Shown in pieces: positions 14,837 through 31,386 of a stretch of 32,374 bases of DNA (positions are counted from its first letter, which is position 1; the number at the start of each line of letters is the position of its first letter). The position numbers and the translations under genes are program-made. The stretch covers positions 513,391-545,764 of the forward strand of contig DF820465.1 of the NCBI GenBank assembly GCA_000739535.1, given 5' to 3'. The notes beneath the pieces were generated by a model, which was given only the letters and a program-made list of their open reading frames with translations, was not told the DNA's origin and made no database searches. The DNA comes from Candidatus Vecturithrix granuli. Lineage in GTDB: Bacteria > Moduliflexota > Moduliflexia > Moduliflexales > Moduliflexaceae.

Positions 14837-15056
14837 AGAGATCCCGCGAAACTTACGAGTCTCTCTCATCGCAATCCGAAAATTCACGGATTCAACGTAT
14901 TCAATCTCGAGAACTACTCACCCACAGCTAAGGAAAATGAATGGCTATTTTCTTGACAAATCGCCCCTCCTGGTTCACACTTAAAGAAGATATTCATCCT
15001 ATTTTGAAGCATCTGTTGACCCAAAGGTCAACCGGATATTTCGCGAGGTTTTGACT

Positions 15057-17090
15057 ATGACGCTGAAAAAAAAGATATTTTTTCCTGTGCTTGCGGCGAT
15101 TGTGCTTTTAGGGAGCCTTGGATATATGGTGATGCAAAGAGTGCTCTCCAAACTTGAAACCGACCTGTCAAAACAAGTGGTGTCCGAAAAACAAGAAGAA
15201 CTTGCTGCGATGCTCACCCTGACGGCTGAACAGGCGAAACAAAAGGCGGCTCTTTTTACGCAACTCCCGGAGATTTTACAAGCTTTTGAGATTGCTCATA
15301 GCGGCAATATCCATGATGAAGCCGATCCCAGGGGGCAAGAAGCCCGAGAATTTTTGCGTCAGACTCTCAAGGCAACTCTGGATGGATATACAACTGTCAT
15401 GAATGGCGAGAAACTGCAATTACACTTTCACCTGCCGAATGGACATAGTTTGGCGAGAATGTGGCGTGAGAAACAGACTGTGCGCGACGGAGTGTGGAAG
15501 GATATTTCCGATGATATTTCAAGTTTCCGCCAAACCGTGTTAGATGTGAATCGTTCAGGCCAGCCTGTCACCGGCATTGAACCTGGGAGCGGTGGGTTTG
15601 TGGTGCGTGGCCTGGCGCCAATCAAAACTCCCCAGGGCAGACAATTAGGCTCAGTAGAAGTGCTTGAGGATTTTAATCCGCTGCTGGACAGTTTGGTAGA
15701 TCGCGACGCTGAAGCAGGACAACAAGGTCTCTTTTTGTTTATGAATGCGGAGTTATTGTCAGTGACGACAGCGTTGCGAGATCATGAAAAATATCCGCTC
15801 ATTGCAGACCAATATGTGTTGATCTATGGCACCGGCGATCGCTATGGTGAACAATTGATCGATCTTGAACTTTTGAATCGTGGGAAACTCGCATTAACGC
15901 TTTCTCATCAGGGGTCTGTCCTGCTTGGCGGATTTCCTGTCCAGGATTACAAAAAACAGCAGATTGGCGTTATCGTTTATACGTTTGATGTGTCAAAACA
16001 GAAGGCTCTGGTTCAACGCATTATGCTCACGATGCTTGGCACGTTGGGTGCGATTTTATGTTTATTAGGAGGGATTATGCTGGTTATGACCAGACGTTCC
16101 ATTTTGACGCCGATTCGCAAGATCGTTGATTTTGCCGAGCAGGTCAAGGAAGGAAATTATAACACGACGCTTGATTTTACCAATGCTGATGAAATCGGCG
16201 AAATGGGTACCGCATTAAATCACATGGTGCTTGCCCAACGCCAAATGATCGATCAAATTCATCGCTCCACGATTCAGGTGACATCCTCATCCACAGAATT
16301 ATCTGCAACTGCCAAAGAACAGGAAGTGACCATGCAGACCCAGGTGGAGTCAACTAACAAGGTGTTAAAGTCGGTCGAAGAAATCTCTGATGTGGTCAAA
16401 GAGCTGGTTCACACCATGGAGCATGTGGTGACGACTGCCCAGGAAACCGCCCATATTGCCGGGATAGGACAGGAGAATTTACAACGCATGAAAACGGTGA
16501 TGCAACAGATGGAGCATGCATCGAAATCAATTTCAGGGCGTCTAGAAATTATCAATGAGAAGGCTGAAAATATTACGACTGTAGTGACAACGATTGCAAA
16601 AGTTGCGGATCAAACCAATCTGTTGTCGCTCAATGCCGCGATTGAGGCTGAAAAGGCCGGAGAGTACGGACAGGGATTCACCGTGGTGGCTCGTGAAATT
16701 CGTCGCCTGGCTGATCAAACCGCCATGGCGACACTGGATATCGATCAAATGGTCAGGGAAATGCAATCAGCAGTCGCTTCAGGGGTCATGGAAATGGATA
16801 AATTTATTGCCCAGGTACACCACCATACTGAAGATGTTAGCAAAACAAGCACCCAATTATCCCAGATTATCGAGCAAGTCCAGACATTGACTCCGAGTTT
16901 TGACCTTGTGAATGAATCCATGAAACATCAGGCGGAAAATGCAGAAAATATTCGGGAGGCCATGCTCCACCTGAGCGAAGAAATGCAGGAAATGAAAGAA
17001 GCCTTGCACGAAACCTATTCAGCGATCAGCCAACTGAATGAAGCGGCACGCGATTTACAAGATGAGGTAGCACATTTTACGATTACCTGA
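15057..17090 (+). CDS. Methyl-accepting chemotaxis protein with dCache_3-like sensor
   Basis: Transmembrane chemoreceptor, 677 residues. TM1 (about 7-27) and TM2 (about 321-346) enclose a periplasmic domain that resembles double-Cache type 3 sensors: LQLHFHLPNGHSLARMWR, then DISSFRQTVLDVNRSGQPV, GIEPGSGGFVVRGLAPI. HAMP follows, then the coiled-coil signalling region with the tip QTNLLSLNAAIEAEKAGE (about 518-535) that binds CheA and CheW. The stretch SGVMEMDKF is also typical of Wsp-type receptors. There is no C-terminal CheR-docking pentapeptide. The ATG at 15057 has GAGG 8 bases upstream; an in-frame TTG at 15051 is too close to that site. It is the first of three receptors in a row. A TTGACA at 14953 in the preceding gap has no convincing -10. 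Confidence 0.93.
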   Translation: MTLKKKIFFPVLAAIVLLGSLGYMVMQRVLSKLETDLSKQVVSEKQEELAAMLTLTAEQAKQKAALFTQLPEILQAFEIAHSGNIHDEADPRGQEAREFLRQTLKATLDGYTTVMNGEKLQLHFHLPNGHSLARMWREKQTVRDGVWKDISDDISSFRQTVLDVNRSGQPVTGIEPGSGGFVVRGLAPIKTPQGRQLGSVEVLEDFNPLLDSLVDRDAEAGQQGLFLFMNAELLSVTTALRDHEKYPLIADQYVLIYGTGDRYGEQLIDLELLNRGKLALTLSHQGSVLLGGFPVQDYKKQQIGVIVYTFDVSKQKALVQRIMLTMLGTLGAILCLLGGIMLVMTRRSILTPIRKIVDFAEQVKEGNYNTTLDFTNADEIGEMGTALNHMVLAQRQMIDQIHRSTIQVTSSSTELSATAKEQEVTMQTQVESTNKVLKSVEEISDVVKELVHTMEHVVTTAQETAHIAGIGQENLQRMKTVMQQMEHASKSISGRLEIINEKAENITTVVTTIAKVADQTNLLSLNAAIEAEKAGEYGQGFTVVAREIRRLADQTAMATLDIDQMVREMQSAVASGVMEMDKFIAQVHHHTEDVSKTSTQLSQIIEQVQTLTPSFDLVNESMKHQAENAENIREAMLHLSEEMQEMKEALHETYSAISQLNEAARDLQDEVAHFTIT

Positions 17091-17128
17091 GTTTCTTTGA
17101 CCATTTCGAACAATCGGATAGACGGGCT

Positions 17129-19171
17129 ATGCGAACAATTTCCATTCGAACAAAATTTTTCACAGTGTGTATTATTCTGGTGTTGGTGACGACGCTTGGG
17201 ATTTCTGCTACATATTACGTGTTAACAACGCGGCGGATGCACCAGGAATCTCGCCAGCGTATCAAAATCGCGTTTGATATTCTGCTTGAAGATATTCACA
17301 ATCGCCGCGACAATTATGCCAGACGACTCGACGAATTTGTTGCGACGGATACATCGCTGCGATTGACCACCTCTACGTATATGGATGATCCCGGTCAGGT
17401 TGCGCAGGTGTCATTTCTGACAAGCTATCTGAAGGAAACCGCTGATATCCTGCAACGATTCGGACGAGGGATCTCTGCTAATCGTTTGATGCTCTATGGC
17501 GCGGATCAGCGATTACTTCTTTTTTATCAGCGCGACGACCAACAAGAAAACCTGGGAGCGTATATGGTTTCTGCAACGGGCAGCAATACGTTTCTGCCGT
17601 TGAATGATTTTGCGAAACTCGGCCCGCTTTTGTTTGGAGAACAGGCGATTCCCGATGTTCCCCTCCCTGAGAAAATCTCTGCATCTTATCTTGCTGACGT
17701 GCCTGATACACTCATGTCGCTGCTGTTCAGCGAAGGTCAGGAATTTGGATTCAGGCTGGCTGCACCGCTCTTTCATCGCGAAAAAAAAACCGGGGTACTG
17801 GTGTGTGAGGTCTTGTATGGTCAAACCTTGCTTGAACGCTATGCGTCATTGAGTAAAACCGATATTCAATTTATGAATCCGGCGACCTTGCCTGCGGTTT
17901 CGGGGGTACCCTTAGAAGAGATTGATGCCGTGATCTCCTGTGAGACCCTCGCACGCGAGGAGGCAGAAATCGTTTTGGGTTCCGTGAGCATCAATGGTCA
18001 GGATTATTATCAAGGACGTTGTGCGTTCAAAGGGCAGCAAAAGCCAATAGGACTCATCACGATCAATCTTTCGCAGCAATTCGAACAACAGGAGATCAAA
18101 AACATCATGTTCGCGGTGCTGTTTGTCTCAGCAGCGGCGTTTGTGGTCTCTTTGGGTCTTTCTTTGCTGCTGAGTCGCAAAGTGATCTTGTCAATTCAGA
18201 ATATAGTCAAAGTGATCGGAGCAGTTGCCGCAGGGGACCTCAGAGAAAAGGCCGCCATTCTGACCCGTGATGAACTCGGGATGTTGGCAGTAAAAGTCAA
18301 TCTTATGCTTGAGCATTTACGCACGATGGTTGATGAAGTCCAACGGGCTGAAATGCAGGTCAGCTCATCATCCTCAGAATTAACTGCGACCGCTAGACAG
18401 CAAGATGTGATGATGACCAACCAGATGACTTCAACAACGTCTGCCGTCGAATCGATCCAAGAAATCAGCAAGGTAACGGCTGATCTGGTTCATACCATGC
18501 AGCAAGTCGCGTCTATGTCGAAAGAAACAGCGGTTATTGCCGGGCAGGGTCAGGGAGATTTAGGGCGGATGGAAGAGGTCATGCAGCAAATGGAACAGGC
18601 CTCGGAAGCGATTTCCAATCGTTTGCGCATTATTGATCAAAAAGCGGATAAGATTACTTCCATGGTGACCACGATCACGAAAGTCGCCGAACAGACCAAC
18701 CTGCTGTCATTCAATGCAGCGATTGAAGCTGAAAAAGCCGGGGAATTCGGGCGAGGGTTTACCATTGTAGCTCGTGAAATTCGACGTTTGGCCGATCAGT
18801 CCGCTGTCGCCACGATAGATATTGAATATATGGTGCACGAAATGCAATCTGCGATTTCAACTGGCGTGATGGAGATGGACAAGTTTATTGCGACTGTTCG
18901 ACACAGCGTCACCGATGTCAATCGCATCAGTGCGCAGTTAACACGTATTATTGACCAGGTGCAAGTGCTTCTGACGAATTTTGAAGACGCCAATACCGCC
19001 ATGGGGGTTCAAGCGAACAATGCTCAGAAGATCACCGAAATTATTACGAATTTAAGTGAAGACATGGTCCATACCAAAGTGTCGCTGCACGAAACCTATA
19101 CTGCGATTGAACAACTCGATGAAGCTGCACGAGGACTCCATGAGCAGGTTGCTCGATTTCAAGTTGGATAG
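17129..19171 (+). CDS. Methyl-accepting chemotaxis protein with unrecognised periplasmic sensor
   Basis: Receptor of 680 residues: TM1 (about 8-31), a periplasmic region of roughly 290 residues, TM2 (about 323-350), HAMP, and a signalling domain whose tip reads QTNLLSFNAAIEAEKAGE (about 522-539). The Leu-to-Phe change (SFNAA rather than SLNAA) in the tip sets it apart from the two flanking receptors. The sensor has features of a large single ligand-binding module (FRLAAPLFHREKKTGVLVCEV, DYYQGRCAFKGQQKPIGLIT, Cache-like) but I cannot assign a family. The cytoplasmic half is closely similar to both neighbours, pointing to gene duplication followed by exchange or divergence of the sensor. It starts 38 bp after the first receptor, so the two are surely co-transcribed. 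Confidence 0.92.
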   Translation: MRTISIRTKFFTVCIILVLVTTLGISATYYVLTTRRMHQESRQRIKIAFDILLEDIHNRRDNYARRLDEFVATDTSLRLTTSTYMDDPGQVAQVSFLTSYLKETADILQRFGRGISANRLMLYGADQRLLLFYQRDDQQENLGAYMVSATGSNTFLPLNDFAKLGPLLFGEQAIPDVPLPEKISASYLADVPDTLMSLLFSEGQEFGFRLAAPLFHREKKTGVLVCEVLYGQTLLERYASLSKTDIQFMNPATLPAVSGVPLEEIDAVISCETLAREEAEIVLGSVSINGQDYYQGRCAFKGQQKPIGLITINLSQQFEQQEIKNIMFAVLFVSAAAFVVSLGLSLLLSRKVILSIQNIVKVIGAVAAGDLREKAAILTRDELGMLAVKVNLMLEHLRTMVDEVQRAEMQVSSSSSELTATARQQDVMMTNQMTSTTSAVESIQEISKVTADLVHTMQQVASMSKETAVIAGQGQGDLGRMEEVMQQMEQASEAISNRLRIIDQKADKITSMVTTITKVAEQTNLLSFNAAIEAEKAGEFGRGFTIVAREIRRLADQSAVATIDIEYMVHEMQSAISTGVMEMDKFIATVRHSVTDVNRISAQLTRIIDQVQVLLTNFEDANTAMGVQANNAQKITEIITNLSEDMVHTKVSLHETYTAIEQLDEAARGLHEQVARFQVG

Positions 19172-19222
19172 TACTCATTGAAGAGAGATGTCCGGTTTTT
19201 CAATGTGCGAAGGAGAAAGAAT

Positions 19223-21202
19223 ATGCTGAAAAATTTTTCGTTTTCCAGGAAATTAATTTTTTTATTCAGTTTTTTCAGTATTGTTGCGGCTGTGGGCATA
19301 GGAAGCGGAGGATATCTGCTCATCAGAGCATTTCTGCTACACACGATTGACAAGGAATTGGTGCAGTTTACCGATTCAACTTCGCATCTGGTCGAAACCA
19401 CGGTCACGGTTTCTATTCGGAATTACTTGAAAGCGATTGCAGAACGGAATGAGGAACTTCTCCGCTATTATTATGCTCAGGTGCAAAATGGCGTGCTGAC
19501 AGAAGCAGAGGCCAGGGAACGCCTTTCTCAGATCTTGCTTCAGCAAAAAATTGGGAAAACGGGGTATACCGCAATCATGAGTTCTGCCGGAATCACAGAA
19601 ATCCATCCGGAGCAACAACTCATCAATGTGGATCTCTCTTCCTTCGAGTTCGCACAAAGGGCAACCCGCCAAAAAAGTGGCTACATTGAATATCTGTGGA
19701 AAAAGCCGGGAGAAGAGCAGGAACGGGAGAAATCGGCTTATTTAGCTTATTTTGAACCCTGGGATGATCTGGTGTTTGTCTCTTCATATAAAAGCGAATT
19801 TCGGTATTTAGTGGATGTCAATGATTTTCGAGCGCAGGTGCTATCTGTCCGGCTTGGAGAAACAGGCTATATCTATATCATGGATTCTCAGGGTAATCTG
19901 GTCATCCATCCCTCGCTGGAAGGTCAAAATATCGCTGATTCCAGGGATGCTCAGGGAAGATTTTTTATTCGTGAAATCTGCGACACTAAAACCGGACAGA
20001 TGACATATTTCTGGAGAAATCCGGATGAAGTTCAGGTGCGGGAAAAAAAAATATATTATACCTATTTTGAGTTGATGGATTGGATTATTGTGGGAGGAGT
20101 GTATCTCGATGAGTTATACGCGCCTCTGCATAATTTGATCAAGACAATAGCGTTAATCACGGTTGGCATGTTCTGTTTGGTCATCCCGTGTTCAATTTTG
20201 TTGGGAAAAACACTTGTCAAACCGATCACTCATTTAGTCTCTGCGGCGGAATCCATTGGGAAAGGGGAACTCGACGTGCAGATTCATCAGGGACATCATG
20301 ATGAAATCGGCCATCTTGCCAAAACATTTCATTTGATGTTGGAGGCGCTGAAATCGGTATTAAGTCAAGTACGGCGGGCAGGAATCCAGGTCACGTCTTC
20401 GACGACGGAGTTGGCTGCGACTGCCAGAGAACAAGAGGCGATTATGGCCACACAAGTTGATTCTGCGAAGAAGATGGTGAAATCGGTTGAGGAAATTTCA
20501 AGCGTATCTGAGCGCCTGGTGGAAACCACATCCGAAGTGTCAGGGATGCTCCAAGAGGCTGTAAGTACTGCCAGCAGCGGGCAGGAGGATTTGAGTCAGA
20601 TGCAAGGGGCTATGCATCAGATGGAAGTGGCCTCGCAATCTATCTCCGGGCGATTACAAACTATTAATGAAAAAGCAGAAAATATCACCCAGGTTGTGAC
20701 GACCATTACACAAGTGGCTGAACAAACCAATTTGTTATCACTCAATGCGGCGATTGAAGCGGAGAAAGCGGGGGAATTTGGACGCGGCTTTACAGTGGTT
20801 GCCCGGGAAATTCGGCGATTGGCCGATCAAACGGCGGTTGCGACGCTTGATATTGAGCAGATGGTCAAGGAAATGCAATCGGCGGTCTCGGCCGGGGTCA
20901 TGGAGATGGATAAATTTATGGCTGATGTCCGTCATAACGCCGAAGATGTTGGCAGAATCAGCGCGCAATTGACGCATATCATTGACCAGGTACAGGCTCT
21001 GTCGCCGCACTTTGATGATGTGCATCAGGCCATGGGACGCCAATCTGAAAGCGCCCAAAAAATTAATATGGAAATTATTCAATTAAATGAAGAAATGCAG
21101 CAAACGCGAGATTCAGTTCATGAAACCTACTCGGTGATTGAGCAACTGAATGAAGCAGCCAGAAATTTGCAAGAAGAGGTGTCACGCTTTAAATTTCACT
21201 GA
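19223..21202 (+). CDS. Methyl-accepting chemotaxis protein with tandem Cache_2-like modules
   Basis: Receptor of 659 residues. After TM1 (about 9-33) come two similar Cache modules: GKTGYTAIMSSAGITEIHP (from about 110) and GETGYIYIMDSQGNLVIHP (from about 211). Each is followed by a GxxxYxWxxPxExxxREK stretch and a YFExxDxxxxxxxY ending. This repeat is typical of Cache_2 sensors that often bind small organic acids, but the ligand here is unknown. TM2 is at about 306-328, then HAMP and the signalling tip QTNLLSLNAAIEAEKAGE (about 501-518), with SAGVMEMDKF as in WspA. The ATG at 19223 is fixed by AGGAG 7 bases upstream; the open frame reaches back to a TTG at 19178. It is the receptor nearest to the CheW gene, the position of wspA in Pseudomonas. 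Confidence 0.93.
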   Translation: MLKNFSFSRKLIFLFSFFSIVAAVGIGSGGYLLIRAFLLHTIDKELVQFTDSTSHLVETTVTVSIRNYLKAIAERNEELLRYYYAQVQNGVLTEAEARERLSQILLQQKIGKTGYTAIMSSAGITEIHPEQQLINVDLSSFEFAQRATRQKSGYIEYLWKKPGEEQEREKSAYLAYFEPWDDLVFVSSYKSEFRYLVDVNDFRAQVLSVRLGETGYIYIMDSQGNLVIHPSLEGQNIADSRDAQGRFFIREICDTKTGQMTYFWRNPDEVQVREKKIYYTYFELMDWIIVGGVYLDELYAPLHNLIKTIALITVGMFCLVIPCSILLGKTLVKPITHLVSAAESIGKGELDVQIHQGHHDEIGHLAKTFHLMLEALKSVLSQVRRAGIQVTSSTTELAATAREQEAIMATQVDSAKKMVKSVEEISSVSERLVETTSEVSGMLQEAVSTASSGQEDLSQMQGAMHQMEVASQSISGRLQTINEKAENITQVVTTITQVAEQTNLLSLNAAIEAEKAGEFGRGFTVVAREIRRLADQTAVATLDIEQMVKEMQSAVSAGVMEMDKFMADVRHNAEDVGRISAQLTHIIDQVQALSPHFDDVHQAMGRQSESAQKINMEIIQLNEEMQQTRDSVHETYSVIEQLNEAARNLQEEVSRFKFH

Positions 21203-21233
21203 GCCGATATATGATGGAAAAGGAAAAAATACC

Positions 21234-21710
21234 ATGTTAGTCTTGCTGTTTTATCTTGGCGACGTAATGTACACTATTGAGTGTCAATATGTGAGAGAAA
21301 TCGCTCCCATGGTGACGTTGAAAGAATTGCCTCGCGCCCCGGAGTTTTTTGCCGGATTTTTTAATTATCGAGGGATAATTGTACCAGTGATTGATTTGCG
21401 CCGACTTATTCACGGCGTTCCCTGTCAAATGCGATTGAGCACCCGAATTATTCTGGTCGATTATGTGCAGTACGATTCCAAACCATCAGTGTATGGCCTG
21501 ATTGCCGAGCGAGTGACCGAGGCCACGAAAAAGTCGGACCGGAACTTTATTAGGCCTGATGTCAGGATGCAGGAAGCGCCATACCTGGGAAGTCTGATTA
21601 TGGAAGAAGATCGGATGATTCATCATATTGATGTGAAGACTTTGACCCAAAGTCTTTCATTTTTGCATACGTTTGAAACAAGGATTGCTCATGCCTCAAA
21701 TAACGATTGA
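21234..21710 (+). CDS. wspB: CheW-like coupling protein (WspB position)
   Basis: CheW-domain protein of 158 residues that links the receptors to the CheA kinase at the array base plate. It begins LVLLFYLGDVMYTIECQYVREI and contains AGFFNYRGIIVPVIDLRRLI, the classic CheW core with Gly-Ile-Ile-Val-Pro-Val-Ile-Asp-Leu. The open frame extends further upstream into the end of the receptor gene, but AGGA 9 bases before ATG 21234 and the CheW fold boundary favour this start. It overlaps the CheR gene by 20 bp, so the two are translationally linked. The symbol is given by gene order relative to the Pseudomonas wsp operon. Confidence 0.85.
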   Translation: MLVLLFYLGDVMYTIECQYVREIAPMVTLKELPRAPEFFAGFFNYRGIIVPVIDLRRLIHGVPCQMRLSTRIILVDYVQYDSKPSVYGLIAERVTEATKKSDRNFIRPDVRMQEAPYLGSLIMEEDRMIHHIDVKTLTQSLSFLHTFETRIAHASNND

Positions 21711-22992
21711 ACGTCTTTTGGAAAGTAAGATCGGGGTATCTGTGGAGGCCATCGGCGCCAAAGTTATTGAAAAAGCCGTGCGTCACCGGATGACTGTAGG
21801 CGGATTGACTGATTTAAATGCCTATCTGCAACAGCTTCAGACCTCAGAATACGAATGGAACGAGTTGGTCGAAATGGTTGTAATTCCAGAAACCTGGTTT
21901 TTTCGTAATCGCCAATCATTCACCTTTCTGGAAGAGTATATCAAAACAGAGTGGCTTCCGCAGCATCAAGGCAAAGTATTACGCGTGTTGAGTGCTCCTT
22001 GTTCTACCGGGGAAGAGCCGTATTCTATTGCCATAACGTTACTTGAGGCCGGACTGCGCCCGGAGCATGCCCATATTGACGCGGTTGATATTAGTGCAAA
22101 CGCTTTACAAAAAGCTAAACTCGCAACGTATGGAGCAGAATCGTTCCGCAATAAAGAGACCCTCGCCTTGCGCGAACGCTATTTTGAGAACAAGAAGAAA
22201 ACGTACCATCTGCATGCGAACGTCAAAAGATTGGTTCGGTTTTTACAAGGAAATTTGCTTGATAGTAAGTTGCTGGCGGATGAAAAACCCTATCAGGTGA
22301 TCTTTTGTCGGAATTTATTAATTTATTTAGGTAATGATGCAAAAAAACGCACAGTAGCTGTGCTCTCGCGCTTATTGACAAAAACAGGCATTCTGTTTGT
22401 CGGTCATGCAGAACGACCGATGTTTGAGGGTCTGGAGTTTAATTGGGTCCGCCAGCCTGGCGTGTTTGCCTGCCGACGAATTCATGAGACTCAACTGCGC
22501 AAACAACGGAGATTTCTCCAGATACCCTATCCATTTGAGCGACGTAAAACCAGCCAAATCGTTGAACAATCTCAGATGAATACGGTGTCGCCTTCTCTCG
22601 ACAAAAGACAGCAAGGAAAAGAGCCAAAATCAACGATTCCATCGTTCGAACGGAGACATCCGACTGAAACAACGACGAAATTACTGGATAGAGCGCGTCA
22701 ATTAGCCGATCAGGGGAAATTGAATGAGGCTTTTGCTCTGTGTGAACAGAGCTTGCGTGAAAACCCGGCAGATGTCCAGGCCAATTTTCTCGCTGGACTG
22801 ATTTGGCTGGCTTTAGGGAACGATGAGCAGGCAGAAACCTTTTTTACAAAGACCGTCTATCTTGATCCTCAACATCATGAGGCTCTGAATTATCTGGCAT
22901 TTATTGCTGAATATCGCGGTCAGCATGAGAAAGCGTTGTTATTACGACAACGGATCGAACGGATTCACAAGAAATTCCAGACAGCCGCATAA
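21691..22992 (+). CDS. wspC: CheR-type receptor methyltransferase with C-terminal TPRs (WspC)
   Basis: S-adenosylmethionine-dependent methyltransferase that adds methyl groups to glutamates of the receptors. Of 433 residues, the N-terminal helical domain ends near VVIPETWFFRN. The SAM-binding motif is APCSTGEEPYSIAI (about 100-114), with DAVDISANAL and IFCRNLLIYL (about 203-212) completing the fold. After a low-complexity linker (about 270-325) come two or three TPRs (LADQGKLNEAFALCEQSL; LALGNDEQAETFFTKTVYLD), the WspC hallmark; TPRs may bring the enzyme to receptors that lack a docking pentapeptide, as these do. ATG 21691 has AAGGA 6 bases upstream and lies inside the end of the CheW gene; an in-frame TTG at 21673 is the alternative. 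Confidence 0.93.
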   Translation: MPQITIERLLESKIGVSVEAIGAKVIEKAVRHRMTVGGLTDLNAYLQQLQTSEYEWNELVEMVVIPETWFFRNRQSFTFLEEYIKTEWLPQHQGKVLRVLSAPCSTGEEPYSIAITLLEAGLRPEHAHIDAVDISANALQKAKLATYGAESFRNKETLALRERYFENKKKTYHLHANVKRLVRFLQGNLLDSKLLADEKPYQVIFCRNLLIYLGNDAKKRTVAVLSRLLTKTGILFVGHAERPMFEGLEFNWVRQPGVFACRRIHETQLRKQRRFLQIPYPFERRKTSQIVEQSQMNTVSPSLDKRQQGKEPKSTIPSFERRHPTETTTKLLDRARQLADQGKLNEAFALCEQSLRENPADVQANFLAGLIWLALGNDEQAETFFTKTVYLDPQHHEALNYLAFIAEYRGQHEKALLLRQRIERIHKKFQTAA

Positions 22993-23058
22993 TTTTTCGG
23001 GAAAAGGTAAAAACTGGGTTTTTAAATCTGTGACTCTTTTTTGAAATACTCTATACCT

Positions 23059-23745
23059 ATGGAAGAGACAACACACATTCACAACTGTTGGAAGCGGATC
23101 GGCGTGTGGGGACAGGTAGAACGCTTAACCTGTCCTCTCCTGGAACAAGTGATCCATTGTCGCAATTGTCAGGTGTTTACCCAGGCCGGCCGGCAGCTTT
23201 TGGAACGCAATCTGCCGCAGGAATACCGTAATGACTGGACCGGTGTGCTGGCGCAGAAGAAGGAAGAAGAGCTGATCGGCACGCTCTCAGTCGTTATTTT
23301 TCGCATCGAACGCGAGTGGTTAGCGATTTCTACGCACTTGTTCGAAGAGATCATGAGCGCTGACCAGATCCAGAGCCTGTTGCACCGTATTCCTCATCGG
23401 AAAAATCCGGTGTTAATGGGGATGATTAATGTACACGGCGAAATTTGGCTCTGTGTCTCACTCAGGGAACTCCTGGGAATAGAACGGTTGACAGACCAGG
23501 AAGAGACCCGAAACATCTCAAAACGGATGATGGTGATTAATAGCGACGATGGACGCTGGGTATTTCCGGTGGATGAGATTCATGGCATTTCCCGTGTTCA
23601 CGCGTCAACATTTCAAAATGTTCCTGTCACCGTTGTGAAGGCGAAGTCAACATTTACGAAAGGCATCTTCGAGTGGCAGGAGAAACGTGTGGCCTTTCTG
23701 GATGAAGACCTGCTATTGTACAGTTTGACAAGGAGCGTCAAATGA
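23059..23745 (+). CDS. wspD: CheW-like protein with N-terminal four-Cys motif (WspD)
   Basis: Second coupling protein, 228 residues. The N-terminal 60 residues carry Cys10, Cys25, Cys34 and Cys37 in the setting CWKRIGVWGQ...CPLLEQVIHCRNCQVF. This pattern occurs in WspD-type proteins and looks like a metal or Fe-S site, though no function is known to me. The CheW domain follows (about 75-220): LSVVIFRIEREWLAIS, GMINVHGEIWLCVSLRELL, and RWVFPVDEIHGI. The start is not well fixed: no good ribosome site precedes ATG 23059 or the in-frame TTG at 23041. Its stop codon overlaps the CheA start (ATGA), so the two are translationally coupled. Confidence 0.85.
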   Translation: MEETTHIHNCWKRIGVWGQVERLTCPLLEQVIHCRNCQVFTQAGRQLLERNLPQEYRNDWTGVLAQKKEEELIGTLSVVIFRIEREWLAISTHLFEEIMSADQIQSLLHRIPHRKNPVLMGMINVHGEIWLCVSLRELLGIERLTDQEETRNISKRMMVINSDDGRWVFPVDEIHGISRVHASTFQNVPVTVVKAKSTFTKGIFEWQEKRVAFLDEDLLLYSLTRSVK

Positions 23746-26657
23746 CCAATGAAAGTAAAAAGAATTTAAGCGATTATTCGATGCTCGATCTCTTTCAAAC
23801 TGAGGTTGAAACACACACAACCACGCTTAACGACGGTTTATTGGCATTAGAGACGGCTCCTGAAGCCATGGATAAACTGGAATCTTTGATGCGTGCGGCC
23901 CATTCGATTAAAGGCGGGGCGCGCATTGTGGAGTTAGACGCAGTCGTGAAAATCGCGCATGCGATGGAAGATTGTTTTGTGGCGTTGCAAAGTGGGAAAG
24001 GTATGCTCAAATCCCAGCAAATTGACGTGTTGTTGAGTGGTGTTGATATGATTCGCTCGATTTCCGGAGCGGCGGTCGCCGGAAATCTGACCTGGACAGC
24101 GGAACATGATGAGGAAATCGCCGCCCTCGTCTCGGCTCTGACCCATATTCTGGAACCGGAGACGAATCTTCAAACCTCAACTCTCGACGCCGGCAAGATC
24201 GTTTCGCAGGAGATTCAGCACGATTCGCAGGAAGAATCTTCCGCGCTTCCTGCGCCGAGACAGACGGATCCCGTTACTCCTCAACATACCATGAGGGGAA
24301 AAGAAGCCCAGGCCATAGACATTTCGCTCCTGGAGCTCTTTCGCTCTGAAGTCGAAACTCATGTGACGACATTACTGCAAGGATGCGTAGCCTTGCAACA
24401 ACAGCCTGAATCGCTCGAAAAACTTGAGCCTCTTGTGAAAGCCGTTCATGCGATTAAAGGCGGAGGACAAATCATCGAATCGGATGTGGCAGTGAATCTT
24501 GCTGATGCCATGGAACAGTATCTGATCGCCCTGCAACAAGGCAAGGCTGGCGTGGATGTGGAGACTATTCAGATCTTGCAGCAGGGAAGTGAACTCTTAC
24601 GTGAGATCGCCGCCGCAAATTCCCAGGAGGGGCAAAACTGGTTGGTAGAGCATCAGGAAGACATTGCCCAGGTGATGACGACACTCTCGATGTTCTCTGT
24701 GGCCGAGCCAAAACAAATCAGTCTTGCTTCTTCAGAGCGAAACATCGTAGCCCAACTCCACATGTCTGCTCCTGAAAAGAGGGAAGGAGGCGGAACACCG
24801 TCAGCAGTCTTACCAGATTCTCAGATAACACCTGAGAACGCTGGCGAGATGGTTATACCGCCAATTGCCCTTCGTGAACAACGGGAAGAACCGTTACAAA
24901 AGAATATTGGAGAACGAGACCGAACAGTACGAGTAACCGCCACGAAGATTGAGCGTTTGATGGGGTTAGCTGGCGAAGTGGTAGTCAGTTCTCGCTGGCT
25001 GCCCTCATTTTCAGAATCACTGCTGGCGCTCAAAAAGAATCAACGCGAAACGCTCATGCTTCTCGAAAAATTGCGCGATATATTACGCCATGAAGATAGT
25101 GATGTTCATCTCCGCGAACTGGTCTCTCTGGCCAGGGAAAAAACCAAACAGAGCAACGCCCTGCTCTCAGAAAGAATGAATCAGCTTGATCGTTTTACCG
25201 GCGCCTCGGCCACGCTTTCGGATCGACTGTATCATGAAGTCATTGGCATCCGGATGCGGCCATTTGCGGATGGGGTGCGCGGGTTCCCACGTATGGTCAG
25301 AGATCTTGCCAGAGATCTTGGGAAAAAAGTACAGTTCGAAATTGTGGGGAAATCTACAGAAGTCGATCGTGACATCCTGGAAAAATTAGACGCTCCACTG
25401 ACACATCTGTTACGCAATGCCATTGATCATGGTATTGAACTTCCAGAAGAACGCCTGGCTGCGGGGAAACCTGAAGCAGGGTTGTTACGCCTGGAAGCTG
25501 TTCATCGTTCAGGAATGTTGTTAATCACGGTATCCGATGACGGACGGGGAATCGATCTCAAAAAATTGCGACAGCGAATTCTGCGTAAGGGGTTAGCAGC
25601 GGCGGACATGGCGAATCGCTTAACAGAAGCGGAATTGTTAAAATTTCTGTTCCTGCCCGGATTTTCGACGTCCGAAAATGTGACTGAGATTTCCGGGCGC
25701 GGGGTCGGCCTGGACGTGGTTGATAATATGGTGCATGAAGTCGGCGGCGTCGTGCGCGCCATGTCTAAACTCGGAGAAGGGATGAGTTTTTATCTGGAAC
25801 TACCTCTGACGCTCTCCGTGATTCGTACATTCCTGGTGGAAATTGCGGATGAACCGTATGCGTTTCCGCTGGCCAGGATTGATCGGTGTCTGTTGCTGTC
25901 CAAAACCGATATTGATGTGGTGGAAGATCGGCAGTATTTCCGGTTTGATAATACCAATATTTCCCTGGTGGATATTCATGACGTGCTTGAATTGGAGAAC
26001 CCACCGGCGATTCGAGATGAATTGCCGGTAGTGATTATCAGTAACCGCTCGAATACGTATGGACTCCTGGTTGACAGGTTTATCGGAGAAAGCGACCTGG
26101 TGGTACGTCCTTTGGATTCGCGTCTGGGGAAGGTGCCTGATATTAGCGCAACGGCGGTGATGCTTGATGGCTCTCCTATTCTGATTTTTGATGTCGAAGA
26201 CCTGGTTGGGTCAATTGATAAAATGCTCAGTGGGAGACGTTTGCATAAATTAGCCACAGAAAGCGATGAATTGAAGGAAGTGTCTGCAAAAAAGATTCTG
26301 GTTGTGGATGATTCCATTACGGTGCGGGAAATGGAACGGAAATTGCTTGAAAATCGAGGCTATGAGGTAGATGTGGCGGTGGATGGACTGGCAGGCTGGA
26401 ACGCCTTACGAGCAGAGCACTTTGATCTGGTCGTGTCGGATGTGGATATGCCCAGGATGAATGGGATTGAATTTGTCACCCAGATCAAACAACATGAAGA
26501 ACTCAAAGCTTTGCCGGTAATTATCGTGTCCTATAAAGATACCGAAGAACATCGTTTGCAGGGACTTCAAGCCGGGGCCGATTATTATTTAACGAAAAGC
26601 AGTTTTCAGGATGATTCGTTTATCAATGCGGTGGTGGATTTAATTGGAGAGGCGTAA
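23742..26657 (+). CDS. wspE: Hybrid CheA histidine kinase with two HPt domains and a C-terminal receiver (WspE)
   Basis: Cytoplasmic chemosensory kinase, 971 residues. Two HPt domains have phospho-histidines His54 (AAHSIKGG) and His236 (AVHAIKGG). After a linker come the dimerisation helices (from about 393, RVTATKIERLMGLAGEVV) and the ATP-binding domain (N box LLRNAIDHGIELPEER about 558-573; DDGRGID about 599; GRGVGLDVVD about 653). A CheW-like domain spans about 690-820. The receiver (about 847-971) has acid pocket VVDDS, phospho-acceptor Asp900 and Lys in YYLTKSS, all intact. The CheY-binding P2 domain is absent, as in WspE. The two HPt domains are clearly similar over their whole length (LxxLFxxEVETHxTTL...), so one arose by tandem duplication; a single HPt is usual in WspE. 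Confidence 0.95.
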   Translation: MTNESKKNLSDYSMLDLFQTEVETHTTTLNDGLLALETAPEAMDKLESLMRAAHSIKGGARIVELDAVVKIAHAMEDCFVALQSGKGMLKSQQIDVLLSGVDMIRSISGAAVAGNLTWTAEHDEEIAALVSALTHILEPETNLQTSTLDAGKIVSQEIQHDSQEESSALPAPRQTDPVTPQHTMRGKEAQAIDISLLELFRSEVETHVTTLLQGCVALQQQPESLEKLEPLVKAVHAIKGGGQIIESDVAVNLADAMEQYLIALQQGKAGVDVETIQILQQGSELLREIAAANSQEGQNWLVEHQEDIAQVMTTLSMFSVAEPKQISLASSERNIVAQLHMSAPEKREGGGTPSAVLPDSQITPENAGEMVIPPIALREQREEPLQKNIGERDRTVRVTATKIERLMGLAGEVVVSSRWLPSFSESLLALKKNQRETLMLLEKLRDILRHEDSDVHLRELVSLAREKTKQSNALLSERMNQLDRFTGASATLSDRLYHEVIGIRMRPFADGVRGFPRMVRDLARDLGKKVQFEIVGKSTEVDRDILEKLDAPLTHLLRNAIDHGIELPEERLAAGKPEAGLLRLEAVHRSGMLLITVSDDGRGIDLKKLRQRILRKGLAAADMANRLTEAELLKFLFLPGFSTSENVTEISGRGVGLDVVDNMVHEVGGVVRAMSKLGEGMSFYLELPLTLSVIRTFLVEIADEPYAFPLARIDRCLLLSKTDIDVVEDRQYFRFDNTNISLVDIHDVLELENPPAIRDELPVVIISNRSNTYGLLVDRFIGESDLVVRPLDSRLGKVPDISATAVMLDGSPILIFDVEDLVGSIDKMLSGRRLHKLATESDELKEVSAKKILVVDDSITVREMERKLLENRGYEVDVAVDGLAGWNALRAEHFDLVVSDVDMPRMNGIEFVTQIKQHEELKALPVIIVSYKDTEEHRLQGLQAGADYYLTKSSFQDDSFINAVVDLIGEA

Positions 26658-26659
26658 AC

Positions 26660-27679
26660 ATGCGGATTGCCATTGCGAACCATCGGATCGTCGAGCAATT
26701 ACGACGACTTGTGTTGAGCGCGCCGGACTGTGAAGTGGCCTGGATCGCTCGAAATGGCAGCGAGGCGGTAGAAAAATGTGCGCTTGATCCTCCCGATTTA
26801 GTGTTAATGGAACCGAATTTACCGATGTTAAATGGGGTTGAAGCCACGCGTCGCATTATGCGCGATTTTCCCTGTCCTATCTTGATTGTGACCGATACGG
26901 TTGACGGAAATGCGGCCAAAGTGTTCGAAGCCATGGGCTATGGGGCGTTAGATGCGGTCAGTGCTCCGATGATTGGAGACGACGTGGTGGTGGAAAATAG
27001 CCAAACGCTATTACTCAAAAAGATCAAAATGATTCAGCGGCTTCGCAAAACGCCTTCAGATATTATCCAGCCTGAATCCGGACACGCGAAGCATGGCAGA
27101 ATCACGGTTTCCCCTATGGTGGCGATCGGAGCTTCGGCGGGCGGCCCGAAAACGCTTGCCAAACTCCTTGCACAATTCCCGGCCCGGCTTTCTGCCATCA
27201 TTATCATCATTCAGCATGTTGATCAAGAGTTTTCGGCTGGGTTGGTCGAGTGGTTAGCTGTGCAAACCCCATTAAAGGTCAGATTGGCGCATGAAGGCGA
27301 ACAGCCTAAGAGCGGGCATGTGTATGTAGCTGGCACCAATCATCATCTTATTCTAACTCCTGGCCTGAGATTTGCCTATACTCCGGAACCTCATCAGATC
27401 CTGTATCGCCCGTCGGTGGATGTGTTTTTTGAAAGCGCGGCCAGATATTGGCCCAGGAAGGGGTGTGCAATTCTTCTCACCGGAATGGGACGTGATGGCG
27501 CAAAAGGGCTGGCATCGTTACACAACGTCGGTTGGTATACGATCGCTCAGGATGAAGCTACCAGTATCGTCTATGGTATGCCAAAAGCCGCAAAAGAACT
27601 TGGGGCTGCAACCAATATTCTTCCAATCGATGAGATTGGACCGAGGGTTCTGAAAATATTACATCAGGGCCTAAAGTGA
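26660..27679 (+). CDS. wspF: CheB-type receptor methylesterase with degenerate receiver (WspF)
   Basis: Methylesterase/deamidase that removes methyl groups from receptor glutamates, 339 residues. The catalytic triad is intact: Ser159 in GASAGGP, His186 in IIQHVD, Asp279 in GMGRDGAKG. The N-terminal receiver keeps the fold and GVEATRRIM, GNAAKVFEAMGYGALDAV, as in WspF, but the acid pocket reads IANHR where IVND or VDD is expected. The phospho-acceptor position is Glu51 (VLMEPNLP) instead of Asp. The receiver should therefore not be phosphorylated; Glu could mimic a permanently active state (inference). GGAGAGG precedes the start. The stop codon lies 6 bp before a long palindrome that separates it from the diguanylate cyclase gene. 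Confidence 0.94.
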   Translation: MRIAIANHRIVEQLRRLVLSAPDCEVAWIARNGSEAVEKCALDPPDLVLMEPNLPMLNGVEATRRIMRDFPCPILIVTDTVDGNAAKVFEAMGYGALDAVSAPMIGDDVVVENSQTLLLKKIKMIQRLRKTPSDIIQPESGHAKHGRITVSPMVAIGASAGGPKTLAKLLAQFPARLSAIIIIIQHVDQEFSAGLVEWLAVQTPLKVRLAHEGEQPKSGHVYVAGTNHHLILTPGLRFAYTPEPHQILYRPSVDVFFESAARYWPRKGCAILLTGMGRDGAKGLASLHNVGWYTIAQDEATSIVYGMPKAAKELGAATNILPIDEIGPRVLKILHQGLK

Positions 27680-27685
27680 CTAGAG

Positions 27686-27755
27686 GGACTAAAGTTTCAA
27701 GTGACTAAAGTTGACGACCCTTCCTCAAACTTTAGTCACTTGAAACTTTAGTTCC
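27686..27755. repeat. Long inverted repeat between cheB and the diguanylate cyclase gene
   Basis: The left arm (27686-27713, GGACTAAAGTTTCAAGTGAC...) pairs with the right arm (27726-27755) with almost no mismatches around a 12-base loop. ACTAAAGT and its relatives recur inside the arms. It has no T-tract on the plus strand after the stem beyond a short TTCC, so attenuation or RNA stability control fits better than a plain terminator. It lies within the 89-bp gap and 14 bases before the next ATG. Confidence 0.75.
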
Positions 27756-27768
27756 TTACAAACTTCTG

Positions 27769-29247
27769 ATGACAGAGGAAATTTCACTCACGTCATATCG
27801 CATCACGGTGTTATTGGTTGATGATCAACATATTATTGGCGAGGAGATGCGGCGGATGTTGAGCACCGAACCAGATGTTGATTTTCATTATTGTCAGAAC
27901 CCGGTTCAGGCTCTTAAACTGGCGAATAAAGTGACGCCAACTGTTATTCTGCAAGATCTGGTGATGCCGCAGATTGACGGCTTAACGCTGGTCCGGTATT
28001 TTCGAGCAAACCTACTGACACGGGATGTACCGATCATTGTGCTGTCCGTAAAAGAAGATGCCCAGACCAAAGTTGAAGCTTTTGCCCTGGGAGCCAATGA
28101 TTATATGGTGAAATTTCCGGATCGACTGGAAGTGATTGCTCGTATCCGCTATCATTCTCGCGGGTATATTAATTTGCTGCAAAAGCACGAAGCTTACGAA
28201 AAGCTGAAGCGTTCCATGCAAGAGGAACAGGAACGCACATGGGAGTTAGCCGTCTTGAACCAAATGAGCGACGCGCTGCAGGCCTGTCATGCAGAACAGA
28301 ACACCTACGCGGTGGTCGCTGAGGTGTTTACGCAATTATTTCCGTACAACGCAGGGTTTCTTAGCCTGTTGAATAAGGCTGGCACCAGCTTGAAGGTCGA
28401 GGCAACCTGGGGCAACCTGCCGGAACTTCTACAGGAATTTAATCGGAATCAGTGCCTGGCCCTCCAGCAAAATGCCATGTATGTGGTTGGATGCTCAAGT
28501 GAGAAGCGTATCTGCCCTCATTTGCCGTTACAGAACCCGTGCTCTTACCTGTGCGAACCCATTGTGGCGCGCGGAGAAACCCTGGGATTGCTGCACTTGT
28601 ACTTTGACGCCCATGACGTGCATGACGCCGCCCTATTTCAACAAAAAGTCTGCTCAAAGCAAGCGATTATTCACAGGATGGCAGAACATTACGCCCTTTC
28701 GCTCTTAAATTTACGGTTGTGGGAAACTCTGCGACTGGAAGCAATTCATGATCCGCTCACAGGATTGTATAATCGGCGTTACATGGAGCAAAGCCTGGAT
28801 CGAGAATTAGCCCGGGCTGAGCGGCATCATACTGACTTAGGCATTATCATGCTTGACATTGATTATTTTAAACGGTTCAATGACACATACGGGCATGAAA
28901 TCGGGGATTGTGTGCTCCAAAAACTTGCAACCTATTTAGCTAATAATGTGCGTGATGAAGACATTGCCTGTCGTTATGGCGGGGAAGAGTTTATGCTGAT
29001 CTTGCCTGAAATTTCGTTAGAACACCTGGCTATCCGGGCCGACAGGCTGCGGATGAGTGTGAAACAAGAAGTTACTATTATGCACCAGAACATGCCGTTG
29101 ACAATTACGATCTCCTCAGGCGTTGCTTGTTTTCCGACGCACGGCAATACGGCGCAAGAGGTGAAAAAAGCTGCAGATCAGGCATTATATCAAGCAAAAG
29201 CTGAAGGCCGCGATCGCACGATCGTGGCTGCCGTTTGCACAAGATAA
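27769..29247 (+). CDS. wspR: Response regulator diguanylate cyclase, REC-GAF-GGDEF (WspR-like)
   Basis: Makes c-di-GMP from two GTP when its receiver is phosphorylated; 492 residues. The receiver (about 10-130) closely resembles WspR: LLVDDQ, phospho-acceptor Asp63 in ILQDLVMP, FALGANDYMVKFPD, IARIRYHSRGYI. A GAF-type domain (about 165-315), absent from classical WspR, contains clustered cysteines (VGCSSEKRICPHL, CSYLCEPIVARG). The GGDEF domain follows HDPLTGLYNRRYME, with active-site GGEEF (404-408) and an intact inhibitory I-site RDED (395-398) five residues before it, so product inhibition is expected. ATG 27769 has no clear ribosome site, and the long palindrome just upstream may influence translation. 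It is followed after 23 bp by a paralogous receiver gene. Confidence 0.94.
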   Translation: MTEEISLTSYRITVLLVDDQHIIGEEMRRMLSTEPDVDFHYCQNPVQALKLANKVTPTVILQDLVMPQIDGLTLVRYFRANLLTRDVPIIVLSVKEDAQTKVEAFALGANDYMVKFPDRLEVIARIRYHSRGYINLLQKHEAYEKLKRSMQEEQERTWELAVLNQMSDALQACHAEQNTYAVVAEVFTQLFPYNAGFLSLLNKAGTSLKVEATWGNLPELLQEFNRNQCLALQQNAMYVVGCSSEKRICPHLPLQNPCSYLCEPIVARGETLGLLHLYFDAHDVHDAALFQQKVCSKQAIIHRMAEHYALSLLNLRLWETLRLEAIHDPLTGLYNRRYMEQSLDRELARAERHHTDLGIIMLDIDYFKRFNDTYGHEIGDCVLQKLATYLANNVRDEDIACRYGGEEFMLILPEISLEHLAIRADRLRMSVKQEVTIMHQNMPLTITISSGVACFPTHGNTAQEVKKAADQALYQAKAEGRDRTIVAAVCTR

Positions 29248-29270
29248 TTGTCAATGAGAGTGCCATATTC

Positions 29271-30770
29271 ATGTCAAATTCCGTGACGTTAACACACCAT
29301 CGGATTACCGTGTTGTTGGTTGATGATCAACCGATGATCGGCGAGGCGGTTCGCCGCATGTTATCGTCTGAGCAAGACATTGATTTCCATTACTGCCCTG
29401 ATCCGATTCAGGCCATTAAAATGGCAAATCAGGTTGCTCCAACGGTGATCTTGCAAGATCTGGTCATGCCCGAGATTGATGGACTGACATTGGTGCGCTA
29501 TTTTCGCGCCAATCAGTCCACACGAGAAGTCCCACTGATCGTGCTCTCAAGCAAAGAAGAACCTGTGACAAAGGCTGAAGCCTTTGCGCTTGGGGCCAAT
29601 GATTATCTGGTGAAACTCCCGGACAAGTTGGAAGTGCTGGCCCGGATCAGATATCACTCAAAAGGCTATATCAACCTTTTAGAGCGCAATGAAGCCTATA
29701 ATGCTCTGTTAGAAAGCCAGCAGCAGCTTGAACTGCGTAACCGGTTTATCCAGCAAACCTTTGGCCGCTATTTGTCTGATGAAATTGTCAAAACCATTCT
29801 TGAAACGCCGGAAGGTTTAAAAATTGGTGGGGAGAAACGGGTTGTGACGATTATGATGACAGATTTGCGAGGGTTTACTTCCACCTGCGAACGATTGCCG
29901 GCAGAAAATGTGGTGAATATGCTCAATGTGTATCTCGAAGCGATGACAGAAATTATTCTCAAATATCATGGGACAATTGTCGAATTCATCGGAGATGCCA
30001 TCTTAGCGATTTTCGGAGCGCCGCTGATGCGCGAAAACGACGCAGAACGATCTGTGGCATGTGCATTGGAAATGCAAGCGGCCATGACAACCGTCAATCA
30101 GCAGAATTGCGACGCCGGGTATCCGGAAATTGCCATGGGGATTGGCTTGAATACAGGTGATGTCATTGTAGGAAATATTGGTTCGCGCAAACGCACCAAA
30201 TATGGAATTGTGGGCAGAAATGTGAATCTGGCCTCGCGGATTGAATCTTATACGGTGGGCGGGCAGATTCTGATTTCACAAGACACTTTGCTAGCCTGCC
30301 GTCCTATTCTCAAGGTTCACGCCCAGATGGAAGTGATGCCTAAAGGCGTCAAAGAACCGCTGACTATTTATCATATTGTCGGAATCGGAGGGGAATTCAC
30401 AATCTATCTGCCTGAAGAACGCACGGAATTTTTTGAATTAGCTCCACCGCTTCCGATTCGTTTTTCCGTGCTTGAAGGTAAGCACGATAATCAAGCCTTT
30501 TATAGGGGGGATGTGTTGAAATTAGCGCAACATGAGGCTGAAATTCAGGCTGAGCGCGGTTTCCGGGAATTAACAAATCTTAGAATGTCCCTGATTGATC
30601 GGAAGGGGCAGGAAGTAAGTTCGGAATTATACGCGAAAGTGATCGAAAATGTCTCAGATTCGCCTCCGGTGTTTCGCGTGAACTTTACAGCTCTTCCCCC
30701 TGAAGCAACACAATTTTTTCGAAATCTTCTGGAAGGAACACGCATATCGCAAGCAGGCTCAAGTTCGTAG
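29271..30770 (+). CDS. Response regulator class III nucleotide cyclase with WspR-type receiver
   Basis: Predicted phosphorylation-controlled nucleotide cyclase, 499 residues. The receiver (about 10-130; LLVDDQPMIGEAVRRML, Asp63 in ILQDLVMP, DYLVKLPDK, RYHSKGYI) is a paralogue of the preceding gene's receiver. A coiled-coil linker (NALLESQQQLELRNRF) leads to the class III cyclase domain (about 185-385) with metal Asp198 (MTDLRGFT) and Asp242 (FIGDAILAIFGAP). The purine-selecting positions read Glu238 (VEFIGD) and Gly312 (KYGIVG), closer to guanylyl than adenylyl cyclases. A C-terminal region of about 110 residues (RFSVLEGKHDN... to FRVNFTALPPEATQFFRNLL) may be a PilZ-like barrel without the usual c-di-GMP residues. 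The ATG at 29271 is used (GAGAG upstream); the open frame reaches back to a TTG inside the preceding gene. Confidence 0.92.
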   Translation: MSNSVTLTHHRITVLLVDDQPMIGEAVRRMLSSEQDIDFHYCPDPIQAIKMANQVAPTVILQDLVMPEIDGLTLVRYFRANQSTREVPLIVLSSKEEPVTKAEAFALGANDYLVKLPDKLEVLARIRYHSKGYINLLERNEAYNALLESQQQLELRNRFIQQTFGRYLSDEIVKTILETPEGLKIGGEKRVVTIMMTDLRGFTSTCERLPAENVVNMLNVYLEAMTEIILKYHGTIVEFIGDAILAIFGAPLMRENDAERSVACALEMQAAMTTVNQQNCDAGYPEIAMGIGLNTGDVIVGNIGSRKRTKYGIVGRNVNLASRIESYTVGGQILISQDTLLACRPILKVHAQMEVMPKGVKEPLTIYHIVGIGGEFTIYLPEERTEFFELAPPLPIRFSVLEGKHDNQAFYRGDVLKLAQHEAEIQAERGFRELTNLRMSLIDRKGQEVSSELYAKVIENVSDSPPVFRVNFTALPPEATQFFRNLLEGTRISQAGSSS

Positions 30771-30803
30771 TTCTCGATTCCAGGCTCAGGTTCGTAGTTC
30801 TCG
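30754..30803 (+). repeat. Short direct repeat overlapping the 3' end of the cyclase gene
   Basis: CAGGCTCAAGTTCGTAGTTC starts at 30754 and recurs with one change at 30781 (27-bp spacing). The first copy supplies the last codons (Gln-Ala-Gly-Ser-Ser-Ser) and the TAG stop of the cyclase gene. The second runs into a small palindrome CTCGCT-tg-AGCGAG. It looks like a repeat unit that inserted into or expanded at the gene end. Confidence 0.55.
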
Positions 30804-30877
30804 CTTGAGCGAGTTCTTCCGTTTGAAGGCGAGACGACAAACGTGTCAAAATTCAGTTAAGTTGACGCCGCAGATCA

Positions 30878-30926
30878 GGAGTGTTAAAGCCTGGCTTTGA
30901 CAGCTAAAGACGAGTTTTGGCACTCC
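30878..30926. repeat. Family A palindromic repeat (GGAGTG...CACTCC), third location
   Basis: The ends GGAGTG and CACTCC match the units at 7463-7515 and 7959-8008. The first inner hairpin is AAAGCC-t-GGCTTT; the second (AAAGACGAGTTTT) is partly decayed. It lies in the 187-bp gap between the cyclase gene and the cyclic-nucleotide-binding gene. Confidence 0.6.
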
Positions 30927-30957
30927 GATAGATGATTGCGGCATGTACGGATTGACT

Positions 30958-31371
30958 ATGGATGCACAAACACTGAAAACTATATTACGCAAGAATGACT
31001 TATTCAATACGCTGCACGATGATGAGCTTGATGTGCTCATCGAAAACGGCAGCATCCGCGAATTTTTGCGAGGCAAGATCATTTACATGAAGGGTGAAAA
31101 ATCGAATGATACCTTTTGTTTGATCCTCTCCGGAAGTGTGAATATTGTCGCAGCAGGCGGAGATATTCTAAAAGAAATGGGGAGCGGCGAGGTGATCGGC
31201 GAGATCGCACTCTCTGACCCGCATCACATCCGCACCGTAAATGTGATTGCTAAAGAACCGACTTTAGTGCTGGAATGGAATGTAAATCACATCAAAGGCA
31301 AGATTCCGGTACTCTGGAAAAAGCTGCTCAAATTAGCCTGGAAAAATATCAGGAATTATTATGAAGAGTAA
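30958..31371 (+). CDS. Stand-alone cyclic-nucleotide-binding domain protein
   Basis: Small soluble protein of 137 residues consisting of one CRP/PKA-type cyclic-nucleotide-binding domain and a short C-terminal helix, with no helix-turn-helix or other output. Landmarks are FNTLHDDELDVLIENG, GKIIYMKGEKSNDTFCLILSGSVNI, and the phosphate-binding cassette IGEIALSDPHHIRTVNV with Glu82 (ribose) and Arg92 (phosphate) at the same spacing as in E. coli CRP. Thr93 directly after the Arg is the residue associated with cGMP preference in protein kinase G. It may sense the product of the upstream cyclase and act through protein contacts (inference). ATG 30958 has a weak GGA upstream; ATG 30943 in frame is the alternative. 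The next gene follows 15 bp on. Confidence 0.85.
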   Translation: MDAQTLKTILRKNDLFNTLHDDELDVLIENGSIREFLRGKIIYMKGEKSNDTFCLILSGSVNIVAAGGDILKEMGSGEVIGEIALSDPHHIRTVNVIAKEPTLVLEWNVNHIKGKIPVLWKKLLKLAWKNIRNYYEE

Positions 31372-31386
31372 TGGAGGAGCAAATTG

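Follow-up and report, generated by a model that had tools for sequence, protein, structure and literature searches.

A Wsp-type chemosensory cluster of Candidatus Vecturithrix granuli with predicted outputs in c-di-GMP and cGMP

c-di-GMP is the messenger that Wsp systems are known to switch, and few pathways based on cGMP have been established in bacteria. A chemosensory operon of Candidatus Vecturithrix granuli raises the question of whether a single CheA could set both messengers and, if it does, which of the two outputs is the conserved one. The operon lies in a stretch of 32,374 nucleotides (contig C19, positions 513391-545764, of an 8.38 Mb draft genome), which is referred to here as the window. 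The original prediction, made from the sequence of the window, was that a Wsp gene order is extended by a second response regulator carrying a class III cyclase and by a small cyclic nucleotide-binding (CNB) protein that reads the second signal. The reading preferred here, which we hold to be fairly probable, is that one CheA drives a c-di-GMP output and a cGMP output, the cGMP branch being conserved and the c-di-GMP branch having been added in this cluster.

The predicted gene order and domains were borne out by the open reading frames and Pfam domains of every named gene, as were the second response regulator with its class III cyclase and the small CNB protein that follows it (Table 1). The order MCP-CheW-CheR(TPR)-CheW-CheA(REC)-CheB-REC/GGDEF that defines Wsp clusters is present, with the difference that three receptor genes stand at its head; the part of the prediction that placed a single wspA there does not hold, and the order from wspB to wspF does. 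All of the genes are on the + strand, and most neighbours overlap or are separated by only a few bases; larger gaps lie 5' of the GGDEF gene (89 bp) and 5' of the CNB gene (172 bp). The cluster shares with the Wsp system of Pseudomonas, which was represented in the comparison by WspR through PDB sequences, its gene order, CheR-TPR, CheA-REC, two CheW proteins and a diguanylate cyclase that bears a WspR-type receiver and has GGEEF and I-site motifs. It differs from that system in its three receptors, in an additional output that joins a receiver to a putative guanylate cyclase, in a diguanylate cyclase that has a REC-GAF-GGDEF architecture in place of the REC-helical stalk-GGDEF of WspR and whose receiver is closer to cyclase receivers, and in a CheB (WspF) receiver that lacks the phospho-acceptor Asp. 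Searches of the cluster proteins with NCBIfam returned no Wsp-specific names. CheR-TPR, multidomain response regulators and a CheA with multiple Hpt domains and a REC domain are traits of the ACF class, and the cluster was assigned to this class by the traits given in the main text of PMC3447774 and in PMC10542144, at the level of CheR-TPR and CheA domains; multiple Hpt domains with a terminal REC are known in CheA proteins of both the ACF and Tfp classes (PMC10542144). The cluster is Wsp-type, and is not Wsp itself.

Table 1. Features of the chemosensory cluster, with positions counted from the first nucleotide of the window
Feature	Position	Strand	Basis or remark
MCP 1: dCache_3-like sensor, HAMP, MCPsignal	15051..17090	+	ORF and Pfam; ATG start 15057
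MCP 2: HAMP, MCPsignal	17129..19171	+	ORF and Pfam
MCP 3: dCache_2/sCache_2, HAMP, MCPsignal	19178..21202	+	ORF and Pfam
CheW, WspB position	21150..21710	+	Pfam
CheR-TPR, WspC position	21673..22992	+	Pfam
CheW with Cys-containing N-terminal extension, WspD position	23041..23745	+	Pfam
CheA, WspE position: two Hpt, kinase core, CheW domain, C-terminal REC	23742..26657	+	Pfam
CheB, WspF position; receiver Glu replaces phospho-acceptor Asp	26660..27679	+	Pfam, alignment
Output 1: REC-GAF-GGDEF diguanylate cyclase; GGEEF and RxxD I-site present	27769..29247	+	
Output 2: REC-class III cyclase with PilZ-fold C-terminal domain	29235..30770	+	likely ATG 29271
Two dispersed intergenic repeats, about 30787-30860 and 30851-30926	30787..30926	.	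own-genome matches
Stand-alone CNB protein (cNMP_binding), 142 aa	30943..31371	+	Pfam

Both Hpt domains of CheA keep the phospho-accepting His, and the catalytic and phospho-acceptor residues are intact in CheA and in both outputs, including the phosphorylation residues of both output receivers. These receivers match WspR (3bre) at 60% identity in the GGDEF protein and 68% in the cyclase, which confirms that both are WspR-like. Between the two, identity is 74% at the protein level and 67% at the DNA level; a duplication of the receiver, if one happened, was therefore not recent. Identity to the CheA and CheB receivers of the same operon is only 22-29%. Given this contrast and the intact phosphorylation residues, the two are likely to share one CheA, and the predicted layout, in which two cyclases that each carry a WspR-like receiver follow a single CheA, is supported by the domains and by the receiver identity. 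As CheA has its own receiver and CheB is present, the flow of phosphate may favour one output over the other. An alignment of the CheB receiver (26660-27020) with its relatives shows that Glu occupies the phospho-acceptor site and that the acidic pocket is altered; the same change is found in one homologous locus (L020), and the phosphorylation site is intact in most relatives. CheB-based adaptation feedback may run without phosphorylation in this cluster. In a CheB tree the window protein falls inside the group of REC-cyclase clusters (SH-aLRT 99).

Exact peptide words, a method that distant cases may escape, were used to scan 84,980 species genomes. This gave 16 full-length relatives of the cyclase, which are 59-69% identical to it along most of its length and come without exception from records named Desulfobacterota or Deltaproteobacteria. 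Searches of Desulfobacterota genomes enlarged the set to 31 homologous loci, nearly all from Desulfobacterota, 28 of which include at least 1 kb of sequence 3' of the cyclase. CheB lies directly upstream of the REC-cyclase in 25 of the 31 loci, and the gene just 3' of the cyclase encodes an Apyc1-family protein in 16 and a REC-PP2C protein in 7. A WspR-type REC-GGDEF protein was found in none of the 31 within the available stretch. The conserved output of this cluster type is the REC-cyclase and not a c-di-GMP enzyme, which reverses the idea that the cyclase is the extra branch: the REC-cyclase following CheB is the standard output, and the c-di-GMP branch is the extra. No second cluster with both a diguanylate cyclase and the cyclase was found in the Desulfobacterota samples searched, in the three related genomes that with the window's own made up the sample of its phylum, or among the matches of the genome-wide scan with exact peptide words, from which distant cases may escape; the arrangement is known from one genome only, that of the window. 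Other matches of the scan, from Planctomycetota, Ignavibacteriota and other groups, are mostly Wsp-type clusters in which a WspR-type receiver is joined to a SpoIIE-type PP2C phosphatase. The varied outputs across clusters point to a general pattern in which one Wsp-type array is combined with exchangeable WspR-type receiver outputs.

The original prediction had proposed a search for neighbourhoods with a REC-cyclase and a CNB protein, and its outcome was divided, in that the cyclase after CheB is mostly kept and a CNB gene just 3' of the cyclase occurs in 0 of the 31 loci. It is doubtful that the CNB protein serves as a reader dedicated to the cyclase product, and it stands as a candidate only. 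Its gene adjoins the cyclase gene on the same strand, the phosphate-binding cassette with its Glu and Arg-Thr appears intact, binding of a cyclic nucleotide by the domain seems feasible, and its best PDB matches, which are weak, are cGMP-dependent kinases. Against this, much of the 172-bp gap consists of the two dispersed repeats, which have 42 matches in the same genome and one of which begins shortly after the cyclase stop codon, and the closest CNB paralogue stands alone elsewhere in the genome, away from any cyclase. On its other side the CNB gene is 12 bp from a D-glutamate-cyclase-like gene (31384-32229), which suggests a separate unit, and the CNB gene is probably the start of the next transcription unit. 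The notion of a built-in reader is thus not supported by the loci or by the repeats. The D-glutamate-cyclase-like gene was not found in the three related genomes.

A GAF domain between REC and GGDEF was found in 12 of 13 aligned members and is absent from WspR; the GAF-GGDEF module occurs with unrelated N-termini in Desulfobacterota and has seven further copies in the window genome. In the receiver tree the diguanylate cyclase receiver of the window nests among cyclase receivers with weak support (best identity 76%, to that of L015), and Pseudomonas WspR groups, also with weak support, with REC-PP2C receivers. That the diguanylate cyclase of the window is an orthologue of WspR was considered and set aside on the basis of this nesting, which is a preference only, since in the AU test a grouping of the window receiver with WspR was not rejected (p 0.217); an arrangement with the two window receivers as sisters was neither shown by this weakly supported tree nor rejected (p 0.454). 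In the simplest account, a receiver of the cyclase type was probably fused to a GAF-GGDEF module, and the resulting gene came to lie between those of CheB and the cyclase. A horizontal exchange that involved Desulfonema and the filamentous phylum KSB3 has been reported (PMC6390638).

Alternatively, only one branch could be under this CheA, the inserted REC-GAF-GGDEF protein responding to another kinase or to a GAF ligand, or acting as a phosphate sink that tunes the cyclase. The absence of WspR-type REC-GGDEF proteins from the homologous loci speaks for this, the GAF domain offers an input of its own, and the genome encodes at least five other CheA-like kinases. These kinases, however, match the CheA of the cluster at about 30-33% only, the gene is located inside the operon, and its receiver, which retains every phosphorylation residue and is close in sequence to that of the cyclase, argues for a common kinase, which leaves this alternative unlikely.

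The prediction of a second messenger in the form of a cyclic mononucleotide stands and can be narrowed. The best natural PDB relative of the cyclase domain is the guanylyl cyclase Cya2 of Synechocystis (2w01), with the adenylyl cyclases CyaB and CyaC ranking lower; 6fht, which was also matched, is a Cya2 chimera. The catalytic domains of the two proteins are about 50% identical and share the FGRY transducer motif, and Cya2 has a CHASE2 membrane sensor where the window cyclase has a receiver. The two metal-binding Asp residues and the Asn-Arg transition-state pair are present in the window cyclase. Its first base-specifying site holds Glu (VEFIGD) and not Lys, aligned with Glu488 of Cya2, and its second holds Gly (KYGIVG), aligned with the Cya2 Gly, at a site where Gly or Cys, and not Asp, would be expected in a guanylyl cyclase of the Cya2 type. 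Cya2 is a guanylyl cyclase with this E-G pair, and the E488K substitution turns it into an adenylyl cyclase (PMC4215837, PMC5995499). With Cya2 as the nearest solved relative and the E-G pair in place, the product is probably cGMP, and the window protein is most likely a guanylate cyclase.

An alternative is a dual output that has cAMP or another cNMP as its second messenger. Substrates are not told apart by the generic class III matches in Pfam and PADLOC, the residues at the second site vary among guanylyl cyclases (PMC4215837), and the window cyclase has Ser in place of a Tyr near the transition-state pair of Cya2 that was reported to boost guanylyl cyclase activity (PMC4215837). The exact Cya2 E-G pair, kept in 15 of the 16 Desulfobacterota relatives and lost in L022, and the ranking of Cya2 ahead of CyaB and CyaC make this quite unlikely.

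The cyclase ends in a further domain. The full-length model was poor (mean pLDDT 54, pTM 0.33), and the top Foldseek rows for it were receiver and cyclase chains; the C-terminal domain was used alone, where it was modelled at a pLDDT of about 80. The predicted structure has the six-stranded barrel and C-terminal helix of the PilZ fold and matches 3kyf and other PilZ domains with a VIA-align Z of about 12 over 106 residues. The RxxxR and D/NxSxxG motifs for c-di-GMP are absent from the tail in the window and in the aligned relatives, and the tail is probably an activity-supporting or docking domain and no classical c-di-GMP sensor. The cyclase with its PilZ-fold tail is also found with other N-terminal parts (L098-L106 and L137-L139), so that the catalytic domain and the tail move as one unit. 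Cya2 likewise has a C-terminal extension of roughly 120 residues (118 residues), which has a stimulating effect on activity and whose structure is uncharacterised (PMC5995499). It is a guess that this extension shares the PilZ fold. A broader scheme, in which the kinase would set c-di-GMP and cGMP, the PilZ-fold tail and the CNB protein would integrate and read both, and the whole would derive from a Desulfobacterota cGMP chemosensory pathway reset by a chromosomal Apyc1-type phosphodiesterase, is improbable as a whole.

The Apyc1-like neighbours in the relatives are likely cNMP phosphodiesterases and candidate off-enzymes of the cyclase. The two that were scanned score 96-98 bits against PF23023 (cut-off 50), the HxHxDH motif of the Apyc1 and YhfI MBL phosphodiesterases is intact in the whole set from Desulfobacterota loci, and Bacillus MBL enzymes related to Apyc1 prefer cAMP and cGMP (PMC9117128). 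Unlike the phage Apyc1 proteins, which act against defence, the Desulfobacterota genes are chromosomal neighbours of a signalling cyclase and their products are predicted enzymes. In the window genome a single full-length Apyc1 homologue (49% identity) is encoded, at a site unlinked to the cluster. In the paper that described Apyc1, a role of host Apyc1 enzymes in regulating Pycsar defence or other cNMP signalling was raised as a possibility (PMC9117128), for which the cyclase-Apyc1 cassettes provide a concrete case. That the cluster is itself a Pycsar-like anti-phage module of cyclase and CNB effector is highly improbable: there are weak matches to PADLOC PycC and PycTIR-type models, and Apyc1-family genes adjoin the cyclase in relatives, but the cyclase carries the guanylyl cyclase pair and is fused to a WspR-type receiver in a che operon, and the CNB protein is a lone 142-residue domain with no TIR or membrane effector domain.

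Some of the homologous loci have features of their own. The REC-cyclase, the Apyc1-like enzyme and REC-PP2C are encoded in a row in L014 (8722-12346), and a broken partial Apyc1-like copy (10206-10475) precedes the intact gene in L010. In L009, from Desulfobacterales HSG2, a protein encoded at 12709-15270 on the - strand combines TIR, pentapeptide-repeat, CNB and DUF4388 domains, and its gene is convergent with the REC-cyclase/Apyc1 cassette.

In the preferred mechanism, a Wsp-type (ACF class) receptor array would control the single CheA, whose two Hpt domains would phosphorylate both output receivers. The first regulator, once phosphorylated, would make c-di-GMP as WspR does, and the second, activated through its helical transducer, would make cGMP from GTP, so that one set of receptors would raise both messengers together. 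In this cluster type the predicted cGMP branch normally comes with either an Apyc1-like cNMP phosphodiesterase or a REC-PP2C protein; the Apyc1-like enzyme of the window genome is encoded elsewhere, and the CNB protein would be a possible reader. A whole branch of the Wsp-type clusters would then appear to have cGMP as its conserved output, with an off-enzyme of the anti-Pycsar family beside the cyclase, and the window would illustrate how a related receiver, attached to a new output module, might bring in a second messenger.

Other chemosensory systems resemble parts of this arrangement. The Pil-Chp system of P. aeruginosa influences both cAMP and c-di-GMP, acting through the stand-alone regulators PilG and PilH and a separate membrane cyclase, CyaB, whereas the window has receiver-cyclase fusions within the operon. 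Rhodospirillum centenum uses cGMP in encystment. The Che3 cluster of that species resembles the cluster of the window in being chemotaxis-like; Che3 controls development through a cascade that involves the hybrid kinases CheA3 and CheS3 (PMC3868531), where the window has a receiver fused to the cyclase. According to the main text of a 2012 census, the outputs of CheR-TPR (ACF) clusters include multidomain response regulators, with REC fused to mononucleotidyl cyclases, GGDEF domains and phosphatases (PMC3447774), and a REC-cyclase output is therefore not new as a type. A pair of GGDEF and cyclase outputs, guanylate specificity or an adjacent phosphodiesterase was not found described in that main text. 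The view that no Wsp system with this layout had been described is accordingly tempered, as the REC-cyclase outputs were listed in that census and the dual layout was not found described. In the literature searched, with subscription journals mostly outside it, we found no description of paired c-di-GMP and cGMP outputs, of the guanylate nature of the REC-cyclase or of its conserved Apyc1 partner.

Elsewhere in the window, reading by eye suggested a 1622-residue protein encoded on the - strand (212-5080) to be a Ser/Thr kinase with TPR and many WD40 repeats, and pointed to an open reading frame (9065-10180) that resembles radical SAM proteins of the spore-photoproduct-lyase kind.
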